Positions 1,339 through 63,169 of a stretch of 64,000 bases of DNA are shown in pieces. Source of the stretch: Candidatus Rokuibacteriota bacterium (GTDB lineage: Bacteria > Methylomirabilota > Methylomirabilia > Rokubacteriales > CSP1-6). Location: the NCBI GenBank assembly GCA_003220495.1, contig QHSP01000031.1, forward strand, positions 1 to 64,000, read 5' to 3'. Position numbers and translations under genes: made by a program. Positions within the stretch are counted from its first letter, which is position 1. The number at the start of each line of letters is the position of its first letter. The notes beneath the pieces were generated by a model, which was not told the origin of the DNA, made no database searches, and saw nothing but the letters and a program-made list of their open reading frames with translations.

Positions 1339-1779
1339 GTGCCACAACGGCTCGAGGGGTTGGAGCGGTTGGCCGTCCTGATCCTGAGGCTGTTCCTGGG
1401 CTTCACCTTCATGATGCACGGATCGCAGAAGCTCCTGGGCGCATTCGGCGGTGGCGGTCTCGCCGGGGTCGCGGGCATGCTCTCGAAGCTCGGAGTCGAG
1501 CCTGCCCAGATCTGGGCGTGGGTGCTCTCGATCACCGAGTTCGTCGGCGGCGTCTGTGTGTTCCTCGGCTTCCTGGCCCGGTTCTGGGCGGCCGGCCTCG
1601 TCATCGACATGGCGGTCGCGATCTTCAAGGTGCACATACACAACGGGTTCTTCGCGGGGAAGAACGGCTTCGAGCTGCCACTCGCCCTCGGCGTGATGGC
1701 GCTGGTGATCGTGCTGACCGGGCCCGGATCGCTCTCGGTGGATCGGGCGACCGGCATCGAAAAGGGCGGCGCAGGCTAG
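1339..1779 (+). CDS. DoxX-family membrane protein
   Basis: This 146-residue inner-membrane protein starts at GTG 1339, eight bases after an AAGGGAGG ribosome site. Four hydrophobic segments are visible (about residues 9-27, 50-67, 70-88 and 112-128). The conserved MHGSQKLLG stretch after the first segment and KVHIHNGFFAGKNG before the last are the usual DoxX signature. DoxX proteins are small quinone- or redox-associated membrane proteins of poorly defined role, originally noted near dibenzothiophene oxidation genes. It lies 28 bases before the double-VOC gene and probably heads that operon (1339-5169). A link to oxidative catabolism is inference from context. Confidence 0.85.
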   Translation: MPQRLEGLERLAVLILRLFLGFTFMMHGSQKLLGAFGGGGLAGVAGMLSKLGVEPAQIWAWVLSITEFVGGVCVFLGFLARFWAAGLVIDMAVAIFKVHIHNGFFAGKNGFELPLALGVMALVIVLTGPGSLSVDRATGIEKGGAG

Positions 1780-1807
1780 CGGGATAACAAGGCAGGAGGA
1801 ACGGACC

Positions 1808-3028
1808 ATGGCATCCAACGGCAATGGCTTCAACGTCGGCGGCGTGCTGCTGCAGCGGCCTTTCAAGATCCGGCGGCTCGGCCACTTCGGCTTCAACGCG
1901 GTCAGGATGAACGAGTCGCGCGACTTCTACGGCGACCTCCTCGGCTTCAAGCACTCGGACATCCTGGATTTCGGCAAGATGCCGTGGGCGCCCAAGCGCG
2001 ACGACCTCGGCGACACCCGCGGCTACTTCATGCGCTACGGGACGGACCACCACGCCTTCGTGCTCTTCAACAAGCGGGTGCTCGACCACCGGCCCGATCG
2101 GAAATTCGCGCCGGAGGTGACGATCAACCAGATCACCTGGCAGTGCGGCAGCCTGAAAGAGATCATGGACGCCCACGCGTACTTCCAGGACCAGGGCGTC
2201 CCCATCCAGCGCGTGGGCCGCGACATGCCCGGGAGCAACTGGCACGTGTATGTCTATGACCCTGACGGCCACACGATCGAGCTCTACTACGGCATCGAGC
2301 AGATCGGCTGGAATCAGCTGAGCAAGCCGACCGAGATGTACTACCGCGGCTTCCGCGAGAAGCCGTCGCTGCCCCAGGTCTCCGAGATCACCGAGGTGGC
2401 CGAGGCGCTCGACAAGGGGATCGACGTCTTCGCGGGCAATCGCACGCGCGAGGCGCTGAGCGAGACGTACGACGTGGAAGGCGTGCTGCTGCCGCGGCCG
2501 TTCAAGATCACCAAGATCGGTCCGGTGGGCTTGTTCGTCACCGACGTCCCGCGGGCCGAGGCCTTCTACACCGACCACCTCGGCTTCGTGAAGAGTGAGG
2601 AGACCACCTATCGCGGCGCGCGGTGCGTCTTCCTGCGCGCGGGGGCCGAGCACCACAGCGTCGGGCTCTTCCCGCGCGAGCTCCGCCGCACGCTCGGACT
2701 CTCCGAGCACACGACGTGCATGTCGTTTGGCGTCGAGGTCGGCAGCTACACCCAGCTGCGCGGAGCCGTGACGTTCTTGAAGTCTCGCGGCGTGAAGTTC
2801 GTCGACTCGATCCCGCCCGAGCTGTATCCCGGCATCGACTATTCGGCGTTCGCGCTGGATCCGGACGGGCACTGCGTCCAGCTCTACTACTATATGGAAC
2901 AGGTCGGCTGGGACGGCGCCGTACGGCCCGCCGCCCAGCGCCGCGCCGTGAACGGCGCGTGGCCGGAGACGCTCGAGCCGCTCTCGGACACCTACATCGA
3001 CCAGGTCTTCCAGGGCCCCCTCGGGTAG
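1808..3028 (+). CDS. Double VOC-domain protein, extradiol-dioxygenase-like
   Basis: The 406-residue protein holds two tandem glyoxalase/dioxygenase (VOC) modules, residues about 21-170 and 231-370. Each is introduced by the near-identical GVLLQRPFKI / GVLLPRPFKI, so the gene arose by duplication of a unit larger than the VOC fold. Module 1 keeps a plausible metal set: His26 (GHFGF), His81 or His82 (DHHAF) and Glu158 (HTIELYYG). In module 2 the matching positions are Pro239, His282/283 and Gln358, so its site looks lost. Two-module extradiol dioxygenases such as BphC cleave catechols with Fe(II). Whether this one does is inference. A GGAGGA ribosome site precedes ATG 1808. The gene is followed closely by two flavin oxidoreductases. 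Confidence 0.8.
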   Translation: MASNGNGFNVGGVLLQRPFKIRRLGHFGFNAVRMNESRDFYGDLLGFKHSDILDFGKMPWAPKRDDLGDTRGYFMRYGTDHHAFVLFNKRVLDHRPDRKFAPEVTINQITWQCGSLKEIMDAHAYFQDQGVPIQRVGRDMPGSNWHVYVYDPDGHTIELYYGIEQIGWNQLSKPTEMYYRGFREKPSLPQVSEITEVAEALDKGIDVFAGNRTREALSETYDVEGVLLPRPFKITKIGPVGLFVTDVPRAEAFYTDHLGFVKSEETTYRGARCVFLRAGAEHHSVGLFPRELRRTLGLSEHTTCMSFGVEVGSYTQLRGAVTFLKSRGVKFVDSIPPELYPGIDYSAFALDPDGHCVQLYYYMEQVGWDGAVRPAAQRRAVNGAWPETLEPLSDTYIDQVFQGPLG

Positions 3029-3037
3029 GACCGCGAC

Positions 3038-4117
3038 GTGAAGTTCGGCTACTTCACGCTCACCGACAATCCGCCGGCGTACGGCGCGAATCGGCGCGAT
3101 CCGAATCGATTCCTCCTCGACGTGGTCGAGGAGTGCGTCGAGGCCGAGGCGATGGGGTATCACAGTGCCTGGGTCCCGGAGCACCACTTCGGGCGTTTCG
3201 GCGTGCTTCCCTCGCCGACGATGTTCCTGGCGCACATCGCCAACCGCACGCGGACGCTCAAGCTCGGCCCGGCCACGGTCGTGCTCCCGATCAATCACCC
3301 GCTCCGGATGGTCGAGGAGTTCAACCTGCTGGACCTGCTGAGCAATGGCCGAGCCGTGTTCTCCGCCGGGCGTGGCTACGATCAGGGCGAGTACACGCCG
3401 TTCGGCGCCTCGTTCGCCGACAGCCGCGCCGTGTTCGACGAGCAAATGGAGTACATGATGGCGGCGTGGCGGCAGTCGCCGTTCGAGTTCCACGGCCGCT
3501 ACTACTCGACGCCGGAGCCGCTCACCGTGGTTCCGCGTCCGGTGCAGCACCCTCATCCCGAGGTCTACGTGGCGTGCTTCTCCAAGCCATCGATCGAGCT
3601 GGCGGCGCGGCTGCGCGTCAATACGATCTTCGCCCCGTTCGCCGCGGCGATGCTGTTCGGCTCGGTCCAGGAGGCGGCGCGCGAGAGCAAGCGCATGGCG
3701 AGCGAGGCCGGCCACCCCGATCCGAAGGTGATGTGCAGCTACTTCGTATCGGTCTCCCACAGTCGCGACGAGACCGATCGCGCCCGGGTCCGTCTGCTGC
3801 ACTATCTGCACAGCATCCTGCCGGTGTTCCCGAGCGATCGCCGCACCGCGCCGCCGCACATCGCATACTTCGTCGATATCGTCGAGCGCCTCCGGGCGAT
3901 GAAGCCGGATCAGGTGAGCGACCGGAGCATCGTCACCGGCGACGTCGAGCACTGCATCGAGGTGCTGAAGCGGTGCGAGGAGGGCGGTCTCTCCGAGGTG
4001 ATCCTGTACTTCAACTTCGGCGAGCTCGGCCACCTCGACACGCTCAAGGCGATGGAGCGGTTCGCCCGTGAGGTCATGCCGCACTTCGCCGAGCGCTCGG
4101 TCGCCGCCGGCCGATGA
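3038..4117 (+). CDS. LLM-class flavin-dependent oxidoreductase
   Basis: The 359 residues show the luciferase-like TIM barrel: MKFGYFTLTDN at the N terminus, VPEHHFGRFGVLPSPTMFLAHIANRTRTLKLG around residues 47-80, and the NHPLRMVEEFNLLDLLSNGR block that binds FMN phosphate and lines the active site. The family uses reduced FMN or F420 for monooxygenation or hydride transfer. It starts 9 bases after the double-VOC gene and overlaps the next LLM gene by 4 bases (ATGA), so the three are probably one operon. The two adjacent LLM proteins are clearly paralogous and could form a heterodimer like LuxAB. That pairing is inference. Confidence 0.88.
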   Translation: MKFGYFTLTDNPPAYGANRRDPNRFLLDVVEECVEAEAMGYHSAWVPEHHFGRFGVLPSPTMFLAHIANRTRTLKLGPATVVLPINHPLRMVEEFNLLDLLSNGRAVFSAGRGYDQGEYTPFGASFADSRAVFDEQMEYMMAAWRQSPFEFHGRYYSTPEPLTVVPRPVQHPHPEVYVACFSKPSIELAARLRVNTIFAPFAAAMLFGSVQEAARESKRMASEAGHPDPKVMCSYFVSVSHSRDETDRARVRLLHYLHSILPVFPSDRRTAPPHIAYFVDIVERLRAMKPDQVSDRSIVTGDVEHCIEVLKRCEEGGLSEVILYFNFGELGHLDTLKAMERFAREVMPHFAERSVAAGR

Positions 4118-5169
4118 AGTTCGGCCTCAACTTTTTTCCGTCGTTTCGCGCGAGCGACTCTTCGACGGCGGAGTACTTCGCCCAGTGTCTGCGTCTGGCC
4201 GAGCGCGCGGACCAGCTGGGCTTTCACTCGGTCAAGACGGTCGAGCACTATTTCTACGACTATGGCGGGCACTCGCCGAACCCGGTCGTGTTCCTCGCGG
4301 CCGTCGCGGCGCGAACCCAGCGGATCCGACCTATCACCGGCGCGGTCATCCCGGCGTTCAACCATCCGATCAAGCTGGCCGCGGAGCTGGCCGCGCTCGA
4401 CAACCTCAGCAACGGCCGGCTCGACGTCGGCTTTGGACGCGCGTTCATCCCGAAGGAGTTCGAGGTGTTCGGCGTGAGCATGGACGAGAGCCGCGCCCGC
4501 TTCGAAGAGGGCATCGACATCGTCACGCGGCTCTGGACCGAGGACCGCGTATCCTACGACGGCAAATTCCATCGATTTCGCGACGTCCACCTGAAGCCAC
4601 GGCCGGTCCAGAAGCCTCACCCGCCGATCTGGGTCGCCTCCGTCGCCTCGGTCGAGTCGTTCGTCTGGGCCGGACGGCGCGGCTACAACGTGATGGTCGT
4701 ACCCTACGCCGGCAGCGTCGAGAAGGTCCGCGACATGGTCCGCGCGTACCGACAGGCCTGGCGGGAGGCCGGTCACCCGCCCGGCGCGGAGCAAGTCCAG
4801 GGCTCGCTGCACTGCTACGTGGCCGCGACCCACCGTGAGGCGATCGAGGGCGCGCGGCCGCGCGTCGAGCGCTACATCGAGGTCTTCGCCGAGGCGATGC
4901 GTTCGTGGGCGACGGCGCGGTCCGGCCAGTACGCCGACTACGGCAAGCTGGTCGAGTCGATCGGCCGGACGACGCTGGACTCGATGCTGGCGGACCATCA
5001 GGCGCTGATCGGAACGCCCGATGAGGTGATCGAGCAGCTCCAGTATCACATCGACGTCTTCGGCGAGTTCGAGCCGTCGATGCAGATCAACTTCGGTGGG
5101 ATCGGCGACCGCGAGGCCTTCCGGACGCTCGAGCTCTTCGCCGGCCACGTCATGCCGAAGCTCGCCTGA
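4114..5169 (+). CDS. LLM-class flavin-dependent oxidoreductase
   Basis: This second luciferase-like protein has 351 residues and its ATG overlaps the stop of the preceding gene. It has the same hallmarks: MKFGLNFFPSFR start, TVEHYFYDYGG, AAVAARTQRIRPITGAVIPA, and FNHPIKLAAELAALDNLSNGRLDVGFGRA. FMN or F420 as cofactor is family knowledge. Its operon with DoxX, the double-VOC protein and its paralogue suggests consecutive oxygenation of one substrate. The protein has no signal peptide and is presumably cytoplasmic. Confidence 0.88.
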   Translation: MKFGLNFFPSFRASDSSTAEYFAQCLRLAERADQLGFHSVKTVEHYFYDYGGHSPNPVVFLAAVAARTQRIRPITGAVIPAFNHPIKLAAELAALDNLSNGRLDVGFGRAFIPKEFEVFGVSMDESRARFEEGIDIVTRLWTEDRVSYDGKFHRFRDVHLKPRPVQKPHPPIWVASVASVESFVWAGRRGYNVMVVPYAGSVEKVRDMVRAYRQAWREAGHPPGAEQVQGSLHCYVAATHREAIEGARPRVERYIEVFAEAMRSWATARSGQYADYGKLVESIGRTTLDSMLADHQALIGTPDEVIEQLQYHIDVFGEFEPSMQINFGGIGDREAFRTLELFAGHVMPKLA

Positions 5170-5218
5170 TCGGGGGAACAGCCGCGCCGACTCGGTGGTT
5201 ATTGTGTTTGGAGGCTCC

Positions 5219-5941
5219 ATGCAGGCGCTGCGGATCTTTCGACACGTCCAAGACACCCTCGCGAGATATGGCGCGAGCGCCGCCCTCCACGACATCGGAT
5301 GTCATGCGGTCAACGTCATCGCCGAGTTCCAGATCTTGAGGGGTATGACCGCTCGGCTGCGCGACATCAACGATCCCAGCCTCTTCGACGCGCCGGGCTT
5401 CCACGGGCGGTTCGTCTCCTCGGGCGAGCTCGCGGAGAGGTACGAGGGCGCTCACGAGCTGTCCTCGGCCTTCCTGCTCGAGGCGAGCCTCCGCGGCGAT
5501 CGTTGCTACGCCCTCTTCGAGGGCGATGCGCTGGCATCCTATGGCTGGTACTCCAACCTGCCGAGTCCGATCGACGAGCACTTCGTGCTCCACTTCGCTC
5601 GGGTCTATACCTACATGTACAAGGGGTACACCCTGCCGGCCTACCGCGGGATGCGCCTGCACGCGGTCGGCATGTGCCGGGCGCTGCGAGAATTCACCGC
5701 CGAGGGGAAGGCGGGGTTGATCTCGTACGTGCAATCGAACAACTTCGCGTCATTGCGTTCGGTGGCGCGCATGGGGTACCGGATCTTCGGCGAGGTCTAC
5801 CTCCTCCGGGTGGGGGGCCGCCGCCTCACCTACGCGACGAAGAGCTGCCGCGACTACGACTTCCGGGTGGAACCGACGGCCCGGCCGCGCCGCGGAGACC
5901 GATCATTGCCCAGGGTCTCGGGCTCCCGGGAATCGCCCTGA
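5219..5941 (+). CDS. GNAT-like N-acyltransferase domain protein
   Basis: ATG 5219 is chosen because GGAGG lies directly upstream, giving 240 residues. The middle and C-terminal part reads like a GNAT fold: CYALFEGDALASYGWYSNLPS (beta hairpin with substrate contact), then LPAYRGMRLHAVGMCRALREF in the place of the CoA-binding R/Q-x-x-G-x-G/A loop, then YVQSNNFASLRSVARMGYRIFGEVYLLR, the typical end with a strand after an N-x-x-S helix. The first 90 residues are not recognisable. The substrate is unknown. Its last 88 bases overlap the 3' end of the MaoC gene on the other strand. Confidence 0.65.
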   Translation: MQALRIFRHVQDTLARYGASAALHDIGCHAVNVIAEFQILRGMTARLRDINDPSLFDAPGFHGRFVSSGELAERYEGAHELSSAFLLEASLRGDRCYALFEGDALASYGWYSNLPSPIDEHFVLHFARVYTYMYKGYTLPAYRGMRLHAVGMCRALREFTAEGKAGLISYVQSNNFASLRSVARMGYRIFGEVYLLRVGGRRLTYATKSCRDYDFRVEPTARPRRGDRSLPRVSGSRESP

Positions 5942-6459
5942 GCGGCGCGCCCTTTCCTTGAGTCGCGGACCTCGGGAAAGAGATCGCGCGTCGGCGCGTG
6001 GGCTTTCTTCCACACGAGCACGCTCCGCACGTAGTCGATGACGACCTTGCCCTCCTGCTGGATCCCGCGGGTGCGGACCTTGACGACGCCTCGCCGCGGG
6101 TTCGACCGCGACTCGCGCTTCTCGAGCACGCTCGACTCGGAATAGAGCGTGTCGCCGGCGAAGAGCGGATGGGGCAGCTTCACCTCGTCCCAACCGAGCG
6201 CCACGCCGTTCTCGCTGACGTCGGCCACGCCCATACCCGTCACGATCGCCAGGGTGAGCGTGCTGTTGATGAGGCACTGACCGAACTCGGTTCGCCGGGC
6301 GAAGTCGTTGTTGAAGTGGATCTGGTTGGTGTTGCTGGTGAGCAGGGTGAACCAGATATTATCGGCCTCGGTCACCGTCCGGCCGAGGCGGCAGCGGTAG
6401 ACGTCGCCGACGTTGAAGTCCTCGAAGTAGCGCCCTTCCCATCCGGGGACGACTGTCAT
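5854..6459 (-). CDS. MaoC-family dehydratase (hot-dog fold)
   Basis: The protein has 201 residues, with ATG 6459 after GCGGAGGAAA. FEDFNVGDVYRCRLGRTVTEAD and NIWFTLLTSNTNQIHFN place it in the MaoC branch related to mesaconyl- or itaconyl-CoA hydratases. The hydratase Asp-x4-His dyad is represented by Asn-x4-His (SNTNQIH), a variant I associate with this branch. DTLYSESSVLEKRESRSNPRRGVVKVRTRG is the usual second half. The catalytic domain ends near residue 155. The last 45 or so residues are a charged tail that extends over the neighbouring GNAT-like gene and may be an artefact of a lost stop. It follows the 2-hydroxyacid dehydrogenase gene by 12 bases, so the two are probably co-transcribed. 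Confidence 0.85.
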   Translation of the reverse strand: MTVVPGWEGRYFEDFNVGDVYRCRLGRTVTEADNIWFTLLTSNTNQIHFNNDFARRTEFGQCLINSTLTLAIVTGMGVADVSENGVALGWDEVKLPHPLFAGDTLYSESSVLEKRESRSNPRRGVVKVRTRGIQQEGKVVIDYVRSVLVWKKAHAPTRDLFPEVRDSRKGRAAQGDSREPETLGNDRSPRRGRAVGSTRKS

Positions 6460-21662: not shown

Positions 21663-21866
21663 ATGCTCCTGGGCGTGGCGGTCCTGACGAGCGCGGCTCG
21701 CGCGCAAGAGCCCCGGATGGTGCCCGTCACGGTCGACGGCGAGAGACCGGGACCGGCACGAATCCGGCGGCGTTCACTCGGCCGCTCGATTTCCGGAGGT
21801 GGCCGGAGCCGCGTGGTGATCGGTGGGCAATCGCGCGGCGGCATCCTGAGCGTCGCCGGCGCGTCA
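21663..21866 (+). pseudogene. Remnant of a secreted alpha/beta hydrolase gene
   Basis: In one frame from ATG 21663 the DNA encodes a signal peptide (MLLGVAVLTSAARA) and EPRMVPVTVDGE. After about 20 unrelated Arg-rich residues it encodes SRVVIGGQSRGGILSVA, which has the form of a serine-hydrolase nucleophile elbow (G-Q-S-R-G-G). A normal protein would have well over 100 residues between these parts and about 150 after. The stretch therefore looks like a hydrolase gene with a large internal deletion and lost 3' end. It runs into the stop of the convergent SDR gene. Confidence 0.5.
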
Positions 21867-22640
21867 GCCGATGACCCGTCCGCCCATCACGCGGATCGAG
21901 TCGCCGGTGACGTAGGACGAGGCGTCGGAGGCGAGGAACACGCACGCGTCCGCGATGTCCTCCGGCCGGCCGAGACGCCGGAGCGGAATCTTCGCGAGCT
22001 CTTCGGGCGAGCCGGGCGGCGCCTGGCGGAACTCCGGGTACCACTCGGCGTGGCGCCGCTCGGTGTCGATGAACCCGGGCATCACCATGTTCACGCGGAT
22101 CCCGAACGGGCCGAGCTCCGCGGCGAGCGCGCGCACGAGGCCGAGCAAGCCGGTCTTGGCGACCGTCACGACGGCCGTGTTCGGCCGGCCGGTCAGGCTC
22201 GACATTCCGCCGAGAGCGATGATGCTCCCCCGCCGCCGCTCCTTCATCGCGGGCACCGCCGCACGCGCCAGATAGAACGCCGAGTGGAGATTGACGCCGA
22301 GCACGCGATGCCACTCCTCGACCGACGTGTCGGTGACCGACTTGTGCGGTCGAATTGCGGCGTTGCAGACGAGGACGTCGATCGCGCCGAGCTCGGCGAG
22401 GCCGCGCTCGACCATCGCCTGGCAGACTGCGGGGTCGCCGACGTCGCCGAGCGCGGTGACGACGCGGGCGCCCGCCTTTCGGCACTCGGCCGCGACCGTC
22501 TCGAGCTCGTCTGCGTTGACGCGCGTGTTCAGCACGAGGTCCGCGCCTTCGGCCGCGAACGCGAGCGCGACGGCGCGGCCGATGTTCCGGCTGGCGCCGG
22601 TGATGAGGGCGACTCTTCCCTGGAGCTTGCCGCCGTTCAT
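21864..22640 (-). CDS. SDR-family protein lacking the catalytic tyrosine
   Basis: The protein has 258 residues and its ATG at 22640 overlaps the stop of the LLM gene. A classical SDR Rossmann fold is clear: TGASRNIG (14-21), LGDVGD (64-69), CNAA (92-95), GVNLH (116-120) and MPGFIDT (188-193). The catalytic Ser is at 147 or 148 and Lys162 is kept. The Tyr expected four residues before Lys162 is Val158 (AVVTVAK). FabG-type oxidoreductases need this Tyr as acid/base, so the protein may have reduced or different activity. Confidence 0.88.
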   Translation of the reverse strand: MNGGKLQGRVALITGASRNIGRAVALAFAAEGADLVLNTRVNADELETVAAECRKAGARVVTALGDVGDPAVCQAMVERGLAELGAIDVLVCNAAIRPHKSVTDTSVEEWHRVLGVNLHSAFYLARAAVPAMKERRRGSIIALGGMSSLTGRPNTAVVTVAKTGLLGLVRALAAELGPFGIRVNMVMPGFIDTERRHAEWYPEFRQAPPGSPEELAKIPLRRLGRPEDIADACVFLASDASSYVTGDSIRVMGGRVIG

Positions 22641-23686
22641 CGGCACCCGGCGGCCTTCAGCTCGGGGAACACCGCGTCGCGAAACGTCCGGATCTCCTGC
22701 TCGGGGCCGACGAAGGTCTGGAGCGGCATGATGTAGAGGCGCTTCACCCCGGCGGCGGTCAGATCGACGATGCGGCGGGCGCAGTGCTCGGGCGTACCCA
22801 CCAGGCCGAGCGCGTCGCAGAGCTGAGCGATGACCTCGTCGGGGACGAACGAGGTCGCGGCGATCGCCTGCTCCCAGTCCTGCGCGTGCGAGAGGTCGGG
22901 ATAGATCTTGGAGACGCTCGCCGGGATCTCGAAGTGCGGAATGGAGAGCTTGGTGTGCTCGAGCCAGCGCGCGTGCACGCGCATGATGCCCTGGTGGACG
23001 ACGGTGGGGCGCGCCTGACGGTGCGCCTCGGCCATGGTCGCCGCCATGCCCGTACGAACGGCCCACACGATCTCGAGATCCTCGAGGCGACGCCCGCTGC
23101 GGCGGGCTCCCCTCTCGAGGTGAGTCAGCACGGCGTCGACGATGCCGCGATGAAACCCGACCAGCAGCATCACGCCGTCGGCGACCTCGCCCGCGAGCTC
23201 GATGGCCTTGGGCCCCGACGCCGCCATCAGGAGCGGCACCGGTCGACCCGTGGCATACGCGAGGCGGCCGGGCGTGCCGTGAAAGTCGACGGCCTGTCCG
23301 GACAGGAGCTGGCGCAGGTCCTCGATGCACGCGCGCATCTCGGCGAGCGTCGCCGGCTTGCGGCCGATCGTACTCGCCGAGGTGTAGCCCGTGCCGATCA
23401 CGACCTTGGTGCGCCCCGGCGCGAGCTCGGCGACGGTCTGGATCGCGCTGGCCAGCACCGAGACGTGCCGTGAGAACGGATTGGTCACGGCCGGGAACAA
23501 GGCCAGGCGCGACGTCTGCGTCGCCGCCTGTCCGAGCGTGACGAACGTGTCGCGGCAGAGCAGCTGGCTATCGAGGATTCCGGCGCCGTCGAAGCCAGCC
23601 GCCTCGATGTCCTGGATCAGCCGGATCAGCTCCGGCATCGGCGAGGTGCCCGGGATCCGGAGAGAGATCTCAACGGGGTGGGTCAT
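22637..23686 (-). CDS. LLM-class flavin/F420-dependent oxidoreductase
   Basis: The 349 residues show the luciferase-like barrel: EISLRIPGTSPMPELIRLIQDIEAAGFDGAGILDSQLL, FVTLGQAATQTSRLALFPAVTNPFSRHVSVLASAIQTVAELAPGRTKVVIGTG, and ARRIVDLTAAGVKRLYIMPLQ near the end. The N-terminal pattern is nearer to methylene-tetrahydromethanopterin-reductase-like (F420) members than the two LLM proteins at 3-5 kb. Cofactor choice is inference. Its stop overlaps the start of the SDR gene, so a two-gene operon with coupled translation is likely. Confidence 0.87.
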   Translation of the reverse strand: MTHPVEISLRIPGTSPMPELIRLIQDIEAAGFDGAGILDSQLLCRDTFVTLGQAATQTSRLALFPAVTNPFSRHVSVLASAIQTVAELAPGRTKVVIGTGYTSASTIGRKPATLAEMRACIEDLRQLLSGQAVDFHGTPGRLAYATGRPVPLLMAASGPKAIELAGEVADGVMLLVGFHRGIVDAVLTHLERGARRSGRRLEDLEIVWAVRTGMAATMAEAHRQARPTVVHQGIMRVHARWLEHTKLSIPHFEIPASVSKIYPDLSHAQDWEQAIAATSFVPDEVIAQLCDALGLVGTPEHCARRIVDLTAAGVKRLYIMPLQTFVGPEQEIRTFRDAVFPELKAAGCR

Positions 23687-25364: not shown

Positions 25365-26300
25365 ATGAAGCTGCTCTTCTTCGACGATTTCAGGCTGGGG
25401 GTGCTCAAGGGCGATGCCGTGGTCGACGTATCGGACGCGGTGAAGGACATACCGCACACCGGGCCGCACAACTTGATAACCGGCTTGATCGAGCGGTTCG
25501 CCGACTACAAAGGGCGCCTGGAAGGCGCGGCCGCGCGCGGCCAGGGCAAGCCGGTCAGCCAAGTTCGGATCAGGCCCCCCCTGCCGAAGCCCTACAACAT
25601 CGTCGCCATGGCCGTGAACTACATGGAGGACGGGACGCGCTCGGAGCCCGCGCCGATCAACGCGTTCCATAAGTCGCCCAACTCGGTCATCGGCGACGGC
25701 GACACGATGGTCCTCCCCGACGCGCCCGCGACGATCTTCGAGGGCGAAGCCGAGATGGCGCTGGTCATCGGCAAGAAGGCGAACGCGGTCAGTGCCGGGC
25801 AGGCGATGAGCTACATCTTCGGCTACATGAACTTCATCGACGGCTCGGCCCGCGGCCTGCCGCCGAGCGGCAACACCTTCTACCAGATGAAGTCGCGCGA
25901 CACCTTCTGCCCGATCGGGCCGTACATCGTGACGGCGGACGAGATCGCCGATCCGCACCGGCTCCAGGTCAAGCTCTGGGTGAACGGCGAGCTCAAGCAG
26001 AACTACAACACGAGCGACATGGCCCACAAGATCCCGCGCTGCATCGAGTGGGTCACCTCGATCCACTCCCTCGACGCCGGCGACGTCATCGCGACCGGCA
26101 CGAACCATCGCGGGCTCAGCGGCTTCCAGAACGGCGATCGCATCGAGATCGAGACCGAGGGGCTCGGCCGGCTGCGCTTCAACATCCGGGACGACCTCAA
26201 GCGGACCTGGGGCCGGGAGACCCGGCTCGACCGTCAGGAAAAGAAGCTCGAGGGCACGACGCCGCAGCTGACCGGGAAGTACACGCCCGCGCCGCGGTAA
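25365..26300 (+). CDS. Fumarylacetoacetate hydrolase (FAH)-family protein
   Basis: The protein has 311 residues, with GCAGGAGGGG before ATG 25365. Metal ligands of the FAH fold are seen in FEGEAEMALVIGK (Glu-x-Glu) and NFIDGSARG (Asp). TFCPIGPYIV, DMAHKIPRCIEWVTSIHSLDAGDVIATGTNHRG and NGDRIEIETEGLGRL are the following conserved blocks. Family members hydrolyse or decarboxylate ring-cleavage products such as fumarylpyruvate, oxalomesaconate or 2-hydroxyhepta-2,4-dienedioate. The exact substrate is not resolvable. The gene stands alone but fits the aromatic-catabolism theme of the region. Confidence 0.9.
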   Translation: MKLLFFDDFRLGVLKGDAVVDVSDAVKDIPHTGPHNLITGLIERFADYKGRLEGAAARGQGKPVSQVRIRPPLPKPYNIVAMAVNYMEDGTRSEPAPINAFHKSPNSVIGDGDTMVLPDAPATIFEGEAEMALVIGKKANAVSAGQAMSYIFGYMNFIDGSARGLPPSGNTFYQMKSRDTFCPIGPYIVTADEIADPHRLQVKLWVNGELKQNYNTSDMAHKIPRCIEWVTSIHSLDAGDVIATGTNHRGLSGFQNGDRIEIETEGLGRLRFNIRDDLKRTWGRETRLDRQEKKLEGTTPQLTGKYTPAPR

Positions 26301-48178: not shown

Positions 48179-49183
48179 ATGGCGCCGATGACCCGATACG
48201 TCCTGAAGCGGCTGGTGCTCCTGCCAGCGCTGCTCTTCCTCTTCTCGGTGGCCGTGTTCGCGATCGTCCAGGCGCCGCCGGGCGATTTCCTCACGACCTA
48301 CGTCGCGACGCTCGCGTCGTCCGGCAGCTCGATCAGCGCCGAGCAGGTCGAGGCGCTCCGGCGCGAATACGGGCTCGACCGCCCGATCTGGGTCCAGTAC
48401 CTCAAATGGATGGAGAACCTGGCGAAGGGCAATCTCGGCCTCTCGCTCGAGTACCAGCGTCCGAATGCCGAGCTCATCGGTGAGCGGCTGGTCCTCACGA
48501 TGGTCCTGGCGCTGCTGTCGTTCGTGTTCACCTGGGTCGTTGCGATCCCGGCCGGCATCTACTCGGCCATGCATCCACGCTCCGCGATCGACTACGCGCT
48601 CACGCTGGTCAACTACGTCGGTGTCGCCACCCCCAACTTCATGCTGGCGCTCGTCCTCATGTGGGGCGCCTTCGCGTACCTCGACATGTCCGTCACCGGA
48701 CTGTTCTCGCCGGACTTCGTCGAAGCGCCCTGGAGCGTCGCGCGCGTCGTCGATTTGCTCAAGCACGTCTGGCTCCCCGCGGTCGTGCTCGGGGTGGCCG
48801 GGACCGCGCGGCTCACGCGCGTGATGCGCGCGAATCTGCTCGACGAGCTGAACAAGCCCTACGTCACGACGGCGCGCGCCAAGGGGCTGTCGGAGTGGCG
48901 CCTGGTCGTGCGCTATCCGGCGCGTCTGGCGCTGAATCCGCTCGTGAGCACGATCGGGTGGTATCTCCCTGCCCTCTTCTCCGGGAGCCTGATCGTGGCG
49001 ACCGTGATGAATCTGCCCAACATCGGGCCGCTCCTGCTCCGGGCGCTGATCAACCAGGACATGTACCTGGCCGGGAGCATTCTCCTCATCTATTGCTTCC
49101 TCACGATCGTCGGCACCTTGATCTCGGACATCCTCCTGGCCTGGCTCGATCCGCGGATCAGGTTCGAAGAGGGGATGAGATGA
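48179..49183 (+). CDS. ABC transporter permease, dipeptide type (DppB-like)
   Basis: The 334 residues begin at ATG 48179; a second ATG nine bases on (MTRYVLKRLVLL) is equally possible. DppB pattern: TRYVLKRLVLLPALLFLFSVAVFAIVQAPPGDF, then LRREYGLDRPIWVQYLKWMENLAKGNLGLSL, and EAA loop TTARAKGLSEWRLVVRYPARLALNPLVS. It is the first of four overlapping genes (permease, permease, ATPase, ATPase) that form a complete inner-membrane importer. Confidence 0.93.
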   Translation: MAPMTRYVLKRLVLLPALLFLFSVAVFAIVQAPPGDFLTTYVATLASSGSSISAEQVEALRREYGLDRPIWVQYLKWMENLAKGNLGLSLEYQRPNAELIGERLVLTMVLALLSFVFTWVVAIPAGIYSAMHPRSAIDYALTLVNYVGVATPNFMLALVLMWGAFAYLDMSVTGLFSPDFVEAPWSVARVVDLLKHVWLPAVVLGVAGTARLTRVMRANLLDELNKPYVTTARAKGLSEWRLVVRYPARLALNPLVSTIGWYLPALFSGSLIVATVMNLPNIGPLLLRALINQDMYLAGSILLIYCFLTIVGTLISDILLAWLDPRIRFEEGMR

Positions 49184-50304
49184 GCGTGCTCGCGCCGGCG
49201 GTCCCCGTGACAGCCGAGGAGCGCGTCTCCGTCGCCTCGAGCTGGCGCCTGATCTGGTGGCGCTTCCGGAAGCACCGCCTCGCGCTCGCGAGCGCGGTCG
49301 TTCTGATCACCCTCTACGTCGTCGTGCTCTGCCCCGACTTCTTCAGCACACAGGATCCCGAGGCCACCGACGCGCGGCTGGCCTTCATCCCCATCCAACG
49401 CCTCCACGTCTTCGATGGCCTTCACCCGAGCCCGTGGGTCCCCGACGTGGCGGGCAAGCGCAATCTCACGACGCTCCGCATGGAGTGGCGCGTGGACGAG
49501 ACCCGGCGGATCCCGGTGCGGTTCTTCGTCACCGGCTATTCGTATCGCCTCCTCGGCCTCGTCCCGACCCGGATCCACCTCCTCGGCGCCGCGGCGGCGG
49601 ACGGCCGCGCGCGGCTCTATCTCCTCGGCACCGACCGCCTCGGACGCGATCAGTGGTCGCGGCTCGTCCACGGCACGCGGACGTCGATGACCATCGGTCT
49701 CACCGCGGTCACCTTCTCGGTCGTCCTCGGCGTGCTGCTCGGCGGGATCTCCGGCTACTGCGGCGGGCCCGCGGACGCCGTGATCCAGCGGCTGATCGAG
49801 CTGCTCCAATCGTTGCCGACGATTCCGATCTGGCTGGCGCTCACCGCGGCGCTGCCGCGCGACTGGTCGCCGCAGCAGGTCTTCTTCGCGATCACCGTGA
49901 TCTTGTCGCTGGTGGGCTGGACGACGCTCGGGCGCGAAGTCCGCGGCCGGTTCCTGGCGCTCCGCGAGGAGGACTTCGTGCTGGCGGCGGAGCTGGCGGG
50001 GGCGAGTCAAGGGCGCATCATCATCCGCCACATGGTTCCGACGTTTCTGTCGCACATCATCGCGACCAGCACGCTCGCGATCCCGGCGATGATCATCAAC
50101 GAGACGTCCCTGTCCTTCCTCGGTCTCGGCATTCGGCCGCCGGCGATCAGCTGGGGCGTGCTCCTCCAGGAAGCGCAGAACATCCAGACGGTGGCGCTGG
50201 CGCCCTGGCTCCTGGTACCCGGCGCCGTGGTCATTCTTTCGGTCCTGGCGTTCAATCTGGTGGGGGACGGCTTGAGAGACGCCGCGGATCCGTACAGCCA
50301 GTGA
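49180..50304 (+). CDS. ABC transporter permease, dipeptide type (DppC-like)
   Basis: ATG 49180 overlaps the previous stop; 374 residues, long for DppC because of a periplasmic insert of about 110 residues after the first helix (PDFFSTQDPEATDARLAFIP to DRLGRDQWSRL). Such inserts occur in OppC-like permeases of oligopeptide systems. The rest is standard: IGLTAVTFSVVLGVLLGGISGYCGG, EAA loop AAELAGASQGRIIIRHMVPTFLSHII, end NLVGDGLRDAADPYS. Confidence 0.92.
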   Translation: MSVLAPAVPVTAEERVSVASSWRLIWWRFRKHRLALASAVVLITLYVVVLCPDFFSTQDPEATDARLAFIPIQRLHVFDGLHPSPWVPDVAGKRNLTTLRMEWRVDETRRIPVRFFVTGYSYRLLGLVPTRIHLLGAAAADGRARLYLLGTDRLGRDQWSRLVHGTRTSMTIGLTAVTFSVVLGVLLGGISGYCGGPADAVIQRLIELLQSLPTIPIWLALTAALPRDWSPQQVFFAITVILSLVGWTTLGREVRGRFLALREEDFVLAAELAGASQGRIIIRHMVPTFLSHIIATSTLAIPAMIINETSLSFLGLGIRPPAISWGVLLQEAQNIQTVALAPWLLVPGAVVILSVLAFNLVGDGLRDAADPYSQ

Positions 50305-51338
50305 CGACGCCGGTCCTCCGGGTCAACGATCTCCGGGTTCATTTCTTTCTGGATGAGGGGCTCGTCCGCGCGGTCGACGGCGTGAGCTTCGAGGTGCATC
50401 CCGGCCAGGTCGTCGGGATCGTCGGCGAGAGCGGGTGCGGCAAGAGCGTGACGATGAAGGCGATCCTCCAGATCGTCGAGCCGCCCGGGCGCATCGTCGG
50501 CGGCCAGATCCTCTTTCAGAAGGACTCGGGAGCGGCGATCGACCTGACCCGGCTCTCGCCGAAGGGCGCCGAGCTTCGGGCGATCCGCGGCGCCGAGATC
50601 GCGCTGATCCCGCAGGAGCCGATGGCGGCGTTCAGCCCGGTCCACTCGGTGGGCGAGCAGATCATCGAAGCGCTCACGCTTCACGAGCGCCAGTGGCGGC
50701 CGCGCGGCCCGCGCCTCTCCCGGGCCGAAGCGCGATCGATGACCGTCGATCTCTTCCGCAGCGTCGGGATCTCGATGCCGGCCGAGCGCATCGACGCCTA
50801 TTCGTGGCAGCTCTCTGGCGGGCTCCGCCAGCGCGCCATGATCGCGATGGCGCTGTCGTGCCGGCCGCGGATCCTGATCGCCGACGAGCCGACCACCGCG
50901 GTCGACGTGACCACACAGGCCCAGATCTTGAATCTCCTCCGCGACCTGCAGCGTCAGCACGGAACGGCGATCGTCTTCATCACGCACGACCTCGGCGTGA
51001 TCGCGCAGATGGCGCGCTACGTCGTCGTGATGTACCTCGGGCGCGTGATGGAGCAGGGCGCGGTGGAGGAGATCTTCCACGCGCCGAAGCATCCCTACAC
51101 GCGGGCGCTCCTGAAGTCGATCCCGAGCATGAACGTACCGCCCCGCACTTTGCTGCCGACCATCGCCGGATCGATCCCGCACCCCCTCGGACGCCCTCGC
51201 GGCTGCCCCTTCCACCCGCGCTGCCCGGACGCGATCCCCGGCGTTTGCGCCGAGCGGGTGCCGGCGCTCCGGCCGATCGGGTCGACTCAGCTCGCGAGCT
51301 GCTTCCTCTACAACCGGGACGAGGCGAGCGAGCCGTGA
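50301..51338 (+). CDS. ABC transporter ATP-binding protein, dipeptide type (DppD-like)
   Basis: The GTG at 50301 overlaps the permease stop; 345 residues. Walker [11 protein letters not shown]-loop IPQEPMAAF, signature LSGGLRQR, Walker [10 protein letters not shown], switch His FITHDLGV. The C-terminal oligopeptide ABC domain has [15 protein letters not shown], the cysteine cluster that binds an iron-sulfur cluster in some members. It pairs with the next gene to form the ATPase heterodimer. Confidence 0.95.
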
Positions 51339-52411
51339 GCGCGACGCGATGGCTCCTCGAGGTGCGCCGTCTGAAGAAATCCTTCCCGATTCGGCGCGGG
51401 TGGAACCGGAAGGTCGTGGGCGCGGTGGCGGCGGTCGACGACGTGAGCTTCACGATCCGCGAAGGCGAGACGCTCGGCCTCGTCGGCGAATCGGGGTGCG
51501 GCAAGACGACGACCGCGCGGTGCATCCTGCGCGCGATGGCGCCGACCAGCGGCGAGATCCTCTTCCGCGCGGCCGACGGCCGCGTGGTCGACCTGGCCCC
51601 GCTCTCCCGCGCGGAACTCCGTCCCCTGCGGCCGCAGATCCAGATGGTCTTCCAGGATCCGTTCGGCTCGCTCAATCCACGAATGACCATCTTCGATAAC
51701 GTCGGCGAGCCGCTGCTGGTCAACGGTCTCCGGGACCGCCGGGCTCGGCTCGAGCGCGTCGCCGATCTGCTCGAGCTCACCGGGCTGCGCCCCGAGCACA
51801 TGCACCGTTTCCCGCACGCGTTCTCGGGCGGCCAGCGCCAGCGTATCGGCATCGCGCGGGCGCTCGCGACCGAGCCCCGGCTCGTGGTGGCCGACGAGCC
51901 GGTGTCCGCGCTGGACGTCTCGGTGCAGGCGCAGGTGCTCAACCTCCTCCTCGAGCTCCAGCAGCGCCTGCACCTGACCCTGCTCTTCGTGGCCCACGAT
52001 CTCGCGGTCGTCAAGCACATCAGCGATCGCGTTGCGGTGATGTACGTCGGCCAGCTCGTGGAGCTCGCCACCGCCGAGGCGATCTTCCGGCATCCGCGCC
52101 ATCCCTACACCGCCGCGCTGATGCGGGCGGTGCCCGTACCCGACCCCCACGCGCCGAGCGGCGACGTCGCCCTGGCGGGAGAGGTGGCCAACCCCGCCAA
52201 TCCGCCGGCGGGCTGCTACTTCCACCCGCGCTGTCCGTTCACCATCGAGGCGTGCCGCACCGAGGCGCCGCCACTCCGCGAGATCGAGGCCGGGCACTTC
52301 GTGCGGTGCCATCGTGCGGACGAGCTGGTCCTGGCCGGCGTTGGCGCCGAGCCTGCGCGCGGCGCCCACGGCGTGGTAGATTCCCGGGGATCACAACGGG
52401 AGGACGTATGA
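51335..52411 (+). CDS. ABC transporter ATP-binding protein, dipeptide type (DppF-like)
   Basis: The GTG at 51335 overlaps the DppD-like stop; 358 residues. Walker [12 protein letters not shown]-loop VFQDPFGSL, signature FSGGQRQR, Walker [13 protein letters not shown], switch His [10 protein letters not shown]-terminal [13 protein letters not shown] as in the oligopeptide group. It completes the importer and overlaps the start of the TctC-like gene by 4 bases, suggesting read-through into it. Confidence 0.95.
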
Positions 52412-53430
52412 GCAAGCGGCTTCTCGCTCTCTCGACCGTCGCAATCTTGCTGGCCGCGGGTAGCGGCGAAGCCCGGGCTCAATCCTTCTACGAGGGCAAG
52501 ACCATCCGGCTGGTCGTGGGCTTCGCTCCCGGCGGCGGCTTCGACACGTACGCGCGGGTGCTCTCGCGTCACATGGGGCGCCACATTCCCGGCAATCCGA
52601 CCGTCGTCGTCGAGAACATGACCGGCGCGGGCAGTCTCATCTCGGCGAATCACCTCTATCGTGTCGCGAAACCCGACGGTCTCACCATCGGGCATTTCAA
52701 CGGTGGGCTCTTTCTCGGTCAGGCGCTCGGCCAGCCCGGGATCGAGTTCGACGCGCGCAAGTTCGAGCTCATCGGGGCCCCGATCAAGGAAGACTCGGTC
52801 TGCGCGCTGACCCGGGCGAGCGGCATCACCTCGGTCGAGAAGTGGATGGCCGCGAAGACGCCGGTAAAGCTCGGCGGCGTCGCGCCCGGCGGAACCCCGG
52901 ACGCCAACGCCAGGATCTTGAAGGCGGCGCTCGGGCTGCCGATCCAGCTCGTCTCCGGCTACAAGGGCACGGCCGAGATCCGGCTCGCCGCGTCGTCCGG
53001 CGAGGTGGCCGGGGCATGCTGGTCGTGGGAATCGATGCGGTCGACCTGGCGCAGCGCGCTCGACTCGGGCGAAGTGGTCGCCGTGCTCCAGACGAGCTCC
53101 AGGACGTTTCCCGATCTGTCGGGCATTCCGCTCGCGCTCGGCCTCGCGAAGACCGACGAGGCTCGTCAGCTGATCAAGGTCGGCATCCAGAACGCCGCCG
53201 CCTTCGCTCGCCCCCTGGCGCTTCCGCCCGGCACGCCGAAGGACCGCGTTCTGGTTTTGCGAAAGGCCTTCCAGGAGACGCTGAAGGACCCGGCGTTCCT
53301 GGCCGAAGCCGAGAAGGCCAAGCTCACGCTGGACCCGGCCACGGCCGAGGATCTCGAGCGGATGGTCGCCGAGGCGCTTGCGCTCGAGCCCGCGCTCCTC
53401 GCGAAGCTGAAGGACATCCTCTACAAGTAA
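52408..53430 (+). CDS. Tripartite tricarboxylate transporter binding protein (TctC/Bug family)
   Basis: ATG 52408 follows ACGGGAGGA and overlaps the previous stop; 340 residues with a signal peptide ending EARAQ. TctC/Bug features: [69 protein letters not shown]. It would capture a carboxylate for a TctA/TctB permease. The only such permease in the window is the fusion at 10891, more than 40 kb away. Placement directly behind an ABC operon is unusual. Confidence 0.92.
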
Positions 53431-58094: not shown

Positions 58095-58676
58095 ATGGAA
58101 CGGAGCGCGCGGCAGCGCCGGACGAGCGACACGACCGTCGTCGGCGTCATCGCCGACACGCACGGGCTTCTGAGGCCCGAGGCGGTCGCGGCGCTGACGT
58201 CCGTCGACCTGATCGTGCATGCCGGGGACATCGGCTCCGCCGCGCTCCTCGACGAGCTCGCCACGATCGCACCGGTCCTCGCCGTACGCGGCAACAACGA
58301 CCGCGACGGCTGGGCGGCGTCGCTTCCGGAGACCGTGACGACCGAGATCGCTGGAGTCCGCCTGCACGTCGTGCACGACCTCAAGATGCTGCGGGGCGGC
58401 CCGGCCCGGCTGGGCGTCGACGTGGTCATCTCGGGCCATTCGCACAAGCCGAGCGTGGAGCACCGGTCGGGGGTCCTGCTCCTCAATCCCGGAAGCGCCG
58501 GCCCGCGCCGCTTCAGCCTGCCGATCGCCGTGGCTCGCCTGAGCCTCGGTCCCTCGGGCGCCCGGGCCGAAATCGTCGAGCTCGATGTCGCGCTCCGTAC
58601 GGGACCGCGTCGCCGCACGGCGCGCCGAAGCGGCCTTGACGGGGCCAAGGCGCGCGGCGCAGTATCGCCCCCATGA
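58095..58676 (+). CDS. Metallophosphoesterase, YfcE/MJ0936 type
   Basis: ATG 58095 gives 193 residues. Motifs of the calcineurin-like phosphodiesterase are in order: VIADTHG, VHAGDIGS, VRGNNDRDG, HVVHDLK, ISGHSHKPS. Together they bind two metal ions. The core ends near residue 160; a basic tail of about 30 residues follows. The group hydrolyses small phosphodiesters. Stop and the following UbiD-like start overlap by 4 bases. Confidence 0.92.
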   Translation: MERSARQRRTSDTTVVGVIADTHGLLRPEAVAALTSVDLIVHAGDIGSAALLDELATIAPVLAVRGNNDRDGWAASLPETVTTEIAGVRLHVVHDLKMLRGGPARLGVDVVISGHSHKPSVEHRSGVLLLNPGSAGPRRFSLPIAVARLSLGPSGARAEIVELDVALRTGPRRRTARRSGLDGAKARGAVSPP

Positions 58677-60202
58677 AAAAGGACATCTCGAGCCTTCGCT
58701 CGACCCTCGAATACCTGGAGGCCGCCGGCGAGCTGGTCACGACGGACGTCGAGGTCGATCCGCACCTCGAGGTCGCGGCGATCCAGAAGCGCTTCGACGG
58801 CGGCGCCGCGCTGCTCTTCAACAAGGTCAAGGGCTATCCGAACGCGCGCATCTGCAACAACATCTTCGCCAGCGCCGAGCGCATCGCCCGGCTCCTGGAC
58901 CTCGACGATCCGCGAAAGCTCAAGCACAAGGTCGCCGACGCGCTGCGGGCTCCCCTGCCCCCGGTCGAGGTGAACGACGGGCCTTGCCAGGAAGTGGTCG
59001 TGACGAAGGACATCGACGTGTGGGACGTGATCCCGATGATCTCGCACTCGGACAGCGATCCCGGCCGCACCCTGGGCGCCGGCACCACGGTCGTGCGGGG
59101 CATGCATTTCTGGGGCGGCTCCCACATCGGCTACAACCGCATGAACTTCCGCGGGCCCGACTACTCGAGCTTCCAGATCTCGCCGGGCTCGCACATGGAC
59201 CAGGTCGCGACCCACTGGTACCGCAAGGGTCCCATCCCCGTCACGATCAACATCGGGATCCCGCCGACCTGCACGATGATGGCGGGCTCTGGATTCACGT
59301 ACGTGATCCTGCCGCGCGGGTGCGACGAGCTCGGGGTGGCGGGCGCGCTCCAGGGTTATCCGGTCGAGCTCGTGCGCGCGCGGACGCAGGACGCCTGGTC
59401 GATCGCGAACGCGGAGTACGTCGTCGAGGGCTACATCGACACGACCCAGAAGGTCTGGGAGAGCCCGCTCGCCGAGAAGGACGACGCGCAGGGCGTTCAT
59501 CCGTTCCACCCGGAGTGGTCGGGCTACATGGGCAAGTCGTATCGGACGTACAAGTTCCAGGCGACGGCGATCACGCACCGGGCCGACCGGCCGCTCTATT
59601 ACGGGCTCATCGTCCACGGCATGGACGAGCACTTCATCGATGGCGTGGTGCGCGAAGCGTGCTTCCTCGAGCTCGCCGAGCGGATCGTGCCCGGCCTCTG
59701 CGTCGACACGCACATCCCCATGGGCATGACCGACTGGGGCGGCGTGATCTTCCAGGTCAAGAAGCGGCGCGCCCGCGACGAGGGCCTGCAGCGCAACATC
59801 CTGACGGCCGCGCTCTCGATCTCGCTGGGAGCGCGCCTCGGCATTGTCGTCGACGAGGACGTCGACATCTACAACATCGAGGACGTCCTGTGGGCGCTCA
59901 CGACCCGCGTGAACCCCAAGGAGGACATCCTGACGATCTGTGAGGGCGGCTTCGGCCAGACCTTCCAGCCTGCCGAGCGCAGCTCGGCCGGCGATCGCCA
60001 GTGGACGCAGAGCAACATCCGGTTCTCGGGCGCGCTGGGCATCGACGCGACGCGCCCGTTCATCTACAAGGACGCGTTCGAGCGGGCCCGCTACAACGTC
60101 GAGGTCGTGGATCTCGCCAAGTTCTATTCGCCCGAGCAGATCGAGAAGGCGAAGGCCGGACAACGCGACTACGCCAAGTTTCTGGCGGAGCGCGGGATCT
60201 GA
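58673..60202 (+). CDS. UbiD-family decarboxylase
   Basis: The 509 residues are alignable with UbiD/Fdc over the full length: SLRSTLEYLEAAGELVTTDVEVDPHLEVAAI, PRKLKHKVADALRAPLPP, GGSHIGYNRMNFRGPDYSSFQISPGSHM, INIGIPPTCTMMAGS, and VVDEDVDIYNIEDVLWALTTRVNP near the end. The family uses prenylated FMN, made by a UbiX partner, which is not in the window. It decarboxylates aromatic or alpha,beta-unsaturated acids. It probably reads through from the phosphodiesterase gene. Confidence 0.92.
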   Translation: MKKDISSLRSTLEYLEAAGELVTTDVEVDPHLEVAAIQKRFDGGAALLFNKVKGYPNARICNNIFASAERIARLLDLDDPRKLKHKVADALRAPLPPVEVNDGPCQEVVVTKDIDVWDVIPMISHSDSDPGRTLGAGTTVVRGMHFWGGSHIGYNRMNFRGPDYSSFQISPGSHMDQVATHWYRKGPIPVTINIGIPPTCTMMAGSGFTYVILPRGCDELGVAGALQGYPVELVRARTQDAWSIANAEYVVEGYIDTTQKVWESPLAEKDDAQGVHPFHPEWSGYMGKSYRTYKFQATAITHRADRPLYYGLIVHGMDEHFIDGVVREACFLELAERIVPGLCVDTHIPMGMTDWGGVIFQVKKRRARDEGLQRNILTAALSISLGARLGIVVDEDVDIYNIEDVLWALTTRVNPKEDILTICEGGFGQTFQPAERSSAGDRQWTQSNIRFSGALGIDATRPFIYKDAFERARYNVEVVDLAKFYSPEQIEKAKAGQRDYAKFLAERGI

Positions 60203-62122: not shown

Positions 62123-63169
62123 ATGGACTTCGGGATCTTCACGGAGCAGATACGGCGCGGGAGCAGTCAGGGCGAATGGTTCCGCGAGCTGCTCGAGCTC
62201 GCGGACGCGGGAGAGCAGTGGGGCCTCGACGTCGTATGGATGGCGGAGATGCTCGTCAACCCCGCCCGCTCGGTCCTATCGGCGCCGCTGCTGGTGGCGA
62301 GCTGGATCGTGGCCCGAACGCGCCGCCTGCGCGTGGGGACCGCCGTTCAGCTGTTGCCATTGAACCATCCGCTCCGCGTCGCCGGCGAGGTCGCGACGCT
62401 CGATCATCTGAGCCAGGGACGGTTCGACTTCGGGATCGGCCGCAGCGGCGGCCCGCGCGCGTACGACGCGCTCGGTGTCCCGTACGAGGAGAGTCAGGCG
62501 CGCTTCTTCGAAGCGCTGGAGATCATTCTCACGGCGTGGAAGGGCGAGCCCTTCAGCTACGAGGGCAAGTTCTATCGCTTCAGCGAAACGACGGTCACAC
62601 CGCGCCCGCATCAGCAGCCGCATCCCCCGGTTCGGATGGCCGCGACGACCGCTGAAACGTTTCCCCAAGTCGGCCGGATGGGTTTATCGATCTTCGTGGG
62701 ACTTCGCGGCATGGCCACCCCCGAGCTGGCCGTGCACGTGAAGCGCTACCGCGAAGCCTGGCGGGAAGCCGGCCATCCCGGCGACGGCGACGTGTGCCTG
62801 CGAATTCCCGTGTACGCCGCTCCCACCGAGAAGGCCGCGCTGGAAGAGCCGAAAGAGACGATCATGTACTACTTCCAGCGCCAGGCCGATCTGACCCGCG
62901 CGCCGGTCGGACGCGCCGGCACCGGCCCGGCCGAGCGACGGATCACGCAGGCCAGGACGCTGTCGAGCCTCTCGTATCCCGAGATCCTCAGCACCAAGGT
63001 CGCGTTCGGGACGGGCCCGGCGCTCGTGGATCGCTTCGCCCAGCTCCGGGAAGAGCTCAGCCTGAACGGCGTCGCGGCGGAGCTGAACCCCGGCGGGCTC
63101 CTGCCGATGGAGCAAGAGAAGCGCAGCCTCGAGCTCCTCACGCAGCAGGTGATGCCAAGGTTCAAATAA
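62123..63169 (+). CDS. LLM-class flavin-dependent oxidoreductase
   Basis: ATG 62123 follows AAGGGAGAG, giving 348 residues. Luciferase-like landmarks: MDFGIFTEQIRRGSSQGEWFRELLELADAGEQWGLDVVWMAEM, ARTRRLRVGTAVQLLPLNHPLRVAGEVATLDHLSQGRFDFGIGRSGG, YEGKFYRFSETTVTPRPHQQPHPPVRMAA. It is the fourth LLM protein in the window and nearest in pattern to those at 3-5 kb. It is followed by an enoyl-CoA hydratase gene after 12 bases, likely one operon. Confidence 0.88.
   Translation: MDFGIFTEQIRRGSSQGEWFRELLELADAGEQWGLDVVWMAEMLVNPARSVLSAPLLVASWIVARTRRLRVGTAVQLLPLNHPLRVAGEVATLDHLSQGRFDFGIGRSGGPRAYDALGVPYEESQARFFEALEIILTAWKGEPFSYEGKFYRFSETTVTPRPHQQPHPPVRMAATTAETFPQVGRMGLSIFVGLRGMATPELAVHVKRYREAWREAGHPGDGDVCLRIPVYAAPTEKAALEEPKETIMYYFQRQADLTRAPVGRAGTGPAERRITQARTLSSLSYPEILSTKVAFGTGPALVDRFAQLREELSLNGVAAELNPGGLLPMEQEKRSLELLTQQVMPRFK

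Follow-up and report, generated by a model that had tools for sequence, protein, structure and literature searches.

A double-VOC and luciferase-like monooxygenase operon of Rokubacteria: a probable aromatic-catabolic unit with a non-canonical putative metal site

The window, the whole stretch of 64,000 nucleotides that was analysed, corresponds to contig 53 of the 5.98-Mb metagenome-assembled genome (MAG; G000) of a soil-dwelling member of the Rokubacteria. Five genes near its start lie on the forward strand: an alpha/beta hydrolase (ABH; 228-1109, 293 aa; PF00561, E 3.3e-24), a DoxX membrane protein (1339-1779, 146 aa; PF07681, E 1.5e-20), a double-VOC protein, VOC2 (1808-3028, 406 aa), and two luciferase-like monooxygenases, LLM1 (3038-4117, 359 aa; PF00296, E 4.7e-58) and LLM2 (4114-5169, 351 aa; PF00296, E 8.9e-70). 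The genes from DoxX to LLM2 run head to tail, spaced by 28, 9 and -4 nt, the last of these being an ATGA overlap between LLM1 and LLM2. A first-pass annotation had described these four as closely spaced genes, one of them for a duplicated VOC protein, and both descriptions were borne out: all four open reading frames are present, Pfam matches the families that it named, and VOC2 carries two Glyoxalase/VOC stretches (PF00903, E 1.3e-23) within one chain. ABH, the upstream member, ends 229 nt before DoxX and belongs to the same unit, since it directly abuts VOC2 in two genomes of the genus (46 nt in G004 and 25 nt in G002). A promoter scan found none, and the terminator-like matches returned were not interpretable.

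Behind LLM2 lies a 240-aa open reading frame (5219-5941) that has no Pfam or NCBIfam match and is kept at the same place only in G003 and G006 (70-80%). It overlaps tail to tail with a MaoC/RipB-like hydratase frame (5854-6459, 201 aa), the last 35 residues of which look like a read-on extension, because the gene call in relatives is 166 aa long. Elsewhere, the window contains an oligopeptide-type ABC transporter cassette with a TctC-like gene (48179-53427), a UbiD-family decarboxylase (58673-60202) and, away from the VOC2 operon, an FAH-family hydrolase (25365-26300).

VOC2 occurs in all eight other genomes of the genus (88-96% identity), and its neighbours recur with it, so the gene arrangement is not due to chance. 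Across the nine genus genomes searched, the unit is conserved, with losses. The layout of the window is repeated in G003 and G006, and from DoxX onward in G005, whose contig starts at that gene. The order in G007 and G008 is ABH, DoxX, a LIV ABC transporter, VOC2, LLM1, a bicupin and LLM2; G001 shares it without the LIV transporter and is interrupted by a contig end, while G002 and G004 carry ABH, VOC2 and LLM2 only. ABH adjoins VOC2 or sits just upstream of it wherever the contig extends that far, and every genus genome has an LLM2 orthologue. LLM1 orthologues are found in seven of the nine, as well as in G034 (80%), which has no VOC2, and none was detected in the whole genomes of G002 and G004. 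The neighbourhood comparison that had been suggested as a check on the four-gene grouping therefore gives a divided answer: the neighbourhood is conserved inside the genus, but the set was never found whole outside it, where parts of it recur in other ring-cleavage operons. Two further observations were made here. In G008 and G001, the LLM2 region is followed by a gene for lumazine synthase (L044 4095-4565 and L212 1432-1902), which possibly supplies flavin to the LLMs, and an 81% match confined to VOC2 residues 7-32 (L031, G031:C52:24675-24752) may be what is left of a VOC2 gene that was lost.

A PDB search with the single VOC2 sequence returned weak matches to extradiol dioxygenases, and a profile of 72 sequences matched 3b59, BphC (1han), HPCD (1f1r) and 3vb0 at E 5e-9 to 3e-8. 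The AF2 model built from the same 72-sequence alignment has a pLDDT of 92.6 (an earlier run from 11 close sequences, at 66.9, was set aside) and contains four beta-alpha-beta-beta-beta modules, at residues 23-88, 106-161, 234-289 and 304-360, giving the architecture of two domains with two modules each that characterizes type I extradiol dioxygenases. In a Foldseek search with this model, the best 50 PDB matches (E 7e-16 to 6e-14) consisted entirely of type I extradiol dioxygenases and the related 3b59, with BphC, catechol 2,3-dioxygenase and HPCD at about 1e-15. VOC2 is a distant relative of these enzymes; in NCBIfam, it scores far below the cut-offs for all named dioxygenases. It shares with BphC, catechol 2,3-dioxygenase, HPCD and HsaC the two VOC domains, the four modules and the aligned His26, His82 and Glu158, whereas its chain is longer, owing to a linker and a C-terminal tail. 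The first-pass label of a ring-cleavage-like protein is thus supported by profile and fold, and also by a full-length homologue in a carbofuran catabolic cluster, described below.

Residue conservation was counted over an alignment of 84 VOC2-family sequences; the codons given here are on the forward strand of the window. His26 (1883-1885; 83/84, with one gap) aligns with the first metal-ligand His of BphC (1han), Glu158 (2279-2281; 84/84) with the ligand Glu, and His81-His82 (2048-2053; 84/84) with the second-sphere “HH” of 1han and 3vb0, so that by alignment the second-sphere catalytic His is retained. At the position of the second ligand His, that of “LNHVAY” in 3b59, all 84 sequences have Gln (Gln108, 2129-2131), and for this reason VOC2 does not possess the 2-His-1-Glu triad. 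Positions 143-260 of the TIGR03213 profile align on VOC2 residues 24-158. The C-terminal domain retains His282-His283 but has no ligand His, the equivalent places being taken by Pro239 (2522-2524; 84/84), Ser306 (68/84) and Gln358 (78/84), which leaves no C-terminal active site of the usual kind. Catechol 2,3-dioxygenases have their active site in the C-terminal domain (PMC3943285). The ligand-aligned residues of VOC2, His26, Gln108 and Glu158, therefore mark a candidate metal site in the N-terminal domain instead, where the metal may be held by H26/Q108/E158 or by H26/H82/Q108/E158. Judged from these alignments, the VOC2 family represents a variant whose putative metal site is non-canonical and whose domain roles are reversed.

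A collection scan with VOC2 returned 80 loci, about 50-96% identical, in Rokubacteria, Alpha-, Beta- and Deltaproteobacteria, Tectomicrobia, Chloroflexota and Actinobacteria. Several of these phyla have full-length homologues, often beside FAH-family hydrolases, and among 45 dereplicated loci FAH genes, confirmed as PF01557, are over-represented at up to three genes from VOC2 (13/252 vs 4/424, p 0.001). LLM genes at the same distance are not enriched in these loci (10/252 vs 9/424, p 0.12), and a same-strand LLM lies near VOC2 in 7 of the 45, no more than background. A universal VOC2-LLM pairing was accordingly dropped, and we claim the link at the level of the genus only. Outside the genus, no LLM1 or LLM2 orthologue was found beside VOC2 among the loci fetched, except at L090, a Rhodospirillales MAG in which a 42% LLM1 relative (4938-5987) lies about 4 kb upstream of VOC2. 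In Variovorax WS11, whose homologue is on a large plasmid, and in UBA7691, VOC2 is accompanied by LIV transporter genes and by a gene cluster of which one member encodes a molybdenum hydroxylase subunit. The family is also present on MAG contigs assigned to Klebsiella pneumoniae and Rhizobium sp. Q54 (L092 and L064), assignments that are probably binning or naming errors.

Full-length plasmid homologues of VOC2 (48% identity over 402 residues) are found in Sphingobium CFD-1 and CFD-2, which degrade carbofuran, and they keep all the signature residues, H26, HH81-82, Q108 and E158. The gene order there is an HsaA/HpaH-type hydroxylase, FAH, the VOC2 homologue, an alpha/beta hydrolase, an enoyl-CoA hydratase and a CoA transferase, and no other ring-cleavage gene adjoins the VOC2 homologue in these clusters. 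In the operon cfdABCDEFGH, CfdC has been described as the flavin monooxygenase, and ring cleavage in carbofuran catabolism has been assigned to the dioxygenase CfdE, which is reported as “a new member” of the glyoxalase/bleomycin/dioxygenase family (PMC4498121, PMC8292978). The order in CFD-1 and CFD-2 fits that from cfdC to cfdH, and from gene order and family, rather than a sequence match to strain KN65.2, the plasmid homologue is probably CfdE. The cfd cluster of Novosphingobium KN65.2, of which the CFD-1/2 cluster is the putative counterpart, resembles the window in that the CFD-1/2 VOC homologue lies beside an alpha/beta hydrolase, and differs from it in having the HsaA/HpaH-type hydroxylase, FAH, enoyl-CoA hydratase and CoA transferase in place of the LLMs and DoxX. 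Our literature search found little characterisation of the VOC2 family. That CfdE-like double-VOC proteins form a separate class of ring-cleaving dioxygenases, whose active centre has shifted into the N-terminal domain and has a His-Gln-Glu (or His-His-Gln-Glu) metal site in place of the 2-His-1-Glu triad, is a tentative proposal that we regard as possible but doubtful.

The two LLMs had been called twin paralogues. They are indeed adjacent and members of one superfamily, but “twin” overstates their likeness, because they share just 29% identity and each is closer to other paralogues in the same genome than to its neighbour. The best solved relative of LLM2 is RslO1 of rishirilide biosynthesis (7BIP), likewise a luciferase-like monooxygenase, with an end-to-end alignment at E 1.3e-105. 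RslO1 is an FMN-dependent homodimer (PMC8093152). Unlike LLM2, which has no adjoining reductase, this biosynthetic enzyme has a presumed partner in the flavin reductase RslO2. No PF01613 flavin reductase gene was found on the window contig, and four matches lie on other contigs; as CofD homologues are present in the genome alongside flavin reductases, F420 is also a possible cofactor. The 6-Mb genome holds 118 PF00296 matches, a few of them fragments, an extreme expansion, so the presence of an LLM is in itself nothing unusual there. Two more of them are in the window, one (62123-63169) directly followed by an enoyl-CoA hydratase (63182-63988) and the other (22637-23686) overlapping a short-chain dehydrogenase (21864-22640). 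A literature search for luciferase-like monooxygenases in Rokubacteria found nothing.

The 357-aa protein inserted in G001, G007 and G008 is a pair of Cupin_2 domains. It is related to 5-aminosalicylate dioxygenase and to gentisate 1,2-dioxygenase, although its 284 bits against TIGR02272 fall short of the 442-bit cut-off. This bicupin is absent from the operon of the window, and only paralogues of about 43% are found elsewhere in the genome. Bicupins of the gentisate 1,2-dioxygenase type are thus co-encoded with the unit in three genus genomes, and they also accompany relatives of LLM2 in other parts of the phylum: LLM2 homologues (52-79%) lie directly beside a bicupin of the inserted type in G082 (where it is broken into two frames), G013, G092, G011 and G037, the exception being G034, whose LLM2 homologue has no adjoining bicupin. 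Among 31 bicupin loci inspected, an LLM neighbour was seen only in the LLM2-linked loci and in one other. In G037, from another family of the order, LLM2, bicupin, FAH, DoxX (L204, 58%) and a LIV ABC transporter follow one another in a single run.

Taken with the family assignments, these associations suggest that ABH-DoxX-VOC2-LLM1-LLM2 is an aromatic-compound catabolic operon for flavin-dependent hydroxylation, ring cleavage and hydrolysis, a reading that we hold to be probable. Gene order and its conservation, the family assignments by sequence and fold, the invariance of the putative metal-site residues of VOC2 and the recurrent pairings of VOC2 with FAH and of LLM2 with a bicupin are observed; what each enzyme does, at which step and with which cofactor, and what DoxX contributes, we infer as follows. 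LLM2, together with LLM1 where present, would use FMN (or F420) to add oxygen to an aromatic or phenolic substrate, by hydroxylation or otherwise; VOC2, as a CfdE-like two-domain VOC dioxygenase, would open the activated ring; ABH, the candidate hydrolase, would cut the ring-opened product; and DoxX would serve as a membrane accessory. Each LLM would most likely be a homodimer acting on its own, fed by unlinked flavin reductases. The replacement of ABH by FAH in relatives, or the addition of a bicupin, fits alternative ring-cleavage or hydrolysis steps around the same logic. The parts of the operon are of known kinds, and we found no named pathway with this gene set. Weighing against this reading are the Gln108 of every VOC2, the NCBIfam scores below cut-off, the LLM-VOC2 adjacency that is not significant beyond the genus, the identification of the CFD plasmid gene as CfdE by gene order rather than sequence, and the lack of a flavin reductase gene in the operon.

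The first-pass annotation had likened the LLM pair to LuxAB, in which one subunit is catalytic and the other supporting. The two genes do resemble luxAB in being adjacent members of the same superfamily, and in the window and its nearest relatives they are translationally coupled through the ATGA overlap. LuxA and LuxB are themselves only distantly alike. However, in a tree of 49 LLMs the two stand apart, and an AU test rejects them as one clade (p 0.015). A LuxAB-type pair would be expected to occur together obligately, whereas LLM1 has been lost from G002 and G004 while LLM2 stays, LLM2 stands beside a bicupin without LLM1 in G037, G013, G092 and G011, LLM1 is found without VOC2 in G034, and a bicupin separates the two genes in G007 and G008. 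Nor does either protein look like a subunit without a functional flavin site: Arg112 of LLM1 and Arg109 of LLM2 align with LuxA Arg107, and both have a His aligned with LuxA His44, which we take to be catalytic-site residues. Given also that RslO1, close to LLM2, is a homodimer, we rejected the LuxAB-type heterodimer on the tree test, the loss pattern and the conserved residues, and consider it very improbable.

The main doubt about the catabolic reading concerns Gln108, which leaves room for non-oxygenase VOC chemistry. VOC2 could be an enzyme that does not activate O2, such as an isomerase, lyase, epimerase or hydrolase-like protein, whose substrate would be a CoA ester or a ring-opened compound that the operon's other enzymes supply. 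Gln is one of the four VOC ligands in methylmalonyl-CoA epimerase and glyoxalase I, and H26/H82/Q108/E158 fit this four-ligand pattern; Gln replaces His at the second ligand position in all 84 sequences of the family alignment, and some relatives encode a separate ring-cleaving bicupin in the same operon. On the other hand, VOC2 has four modules and its top fold matches are two-domain extradiol dioxygenases, not single-domain epimerases, and in the CFD clusters, where no second ring-cleavage gene adjoins, the literature gives ring cleavage to CfdE. On balance, we judge a non-oxygenase VOC2 unlikely. There is a further, quite real possibility, a little short of even, that the unit is an adaptable cassette in which LLM1, DoxX, bicupin and transporter come and go around a functional core of ABH, VOC2 and LLM2. 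This would suit G002 and G004, where only the core is found and DoxX and LLM1 are missing together, yet both genes are in place in seven of the nine genomes, and the LLM2-bicupin operon of G037 again includes DoxX. Such a cassette is compatible with aromatic catabolism rather than opposed to it.

Annotation of the VOC2 family, including its members in carbofuran degraders and on the Variovorax WS11 plasmid, goes no further than “VOC family protein”. Should the family prove to cleave rings with an H-Q-E centre, a metal-site variant would be added to a textbook enzyme class, and many unannotated catabolic operons would gain a function. Such activity would also give a handle on the substrates of the more than 100 LLMs in this Rokubacteria genome, because LLM2 relatives travel with ring-cleaving bicupins.
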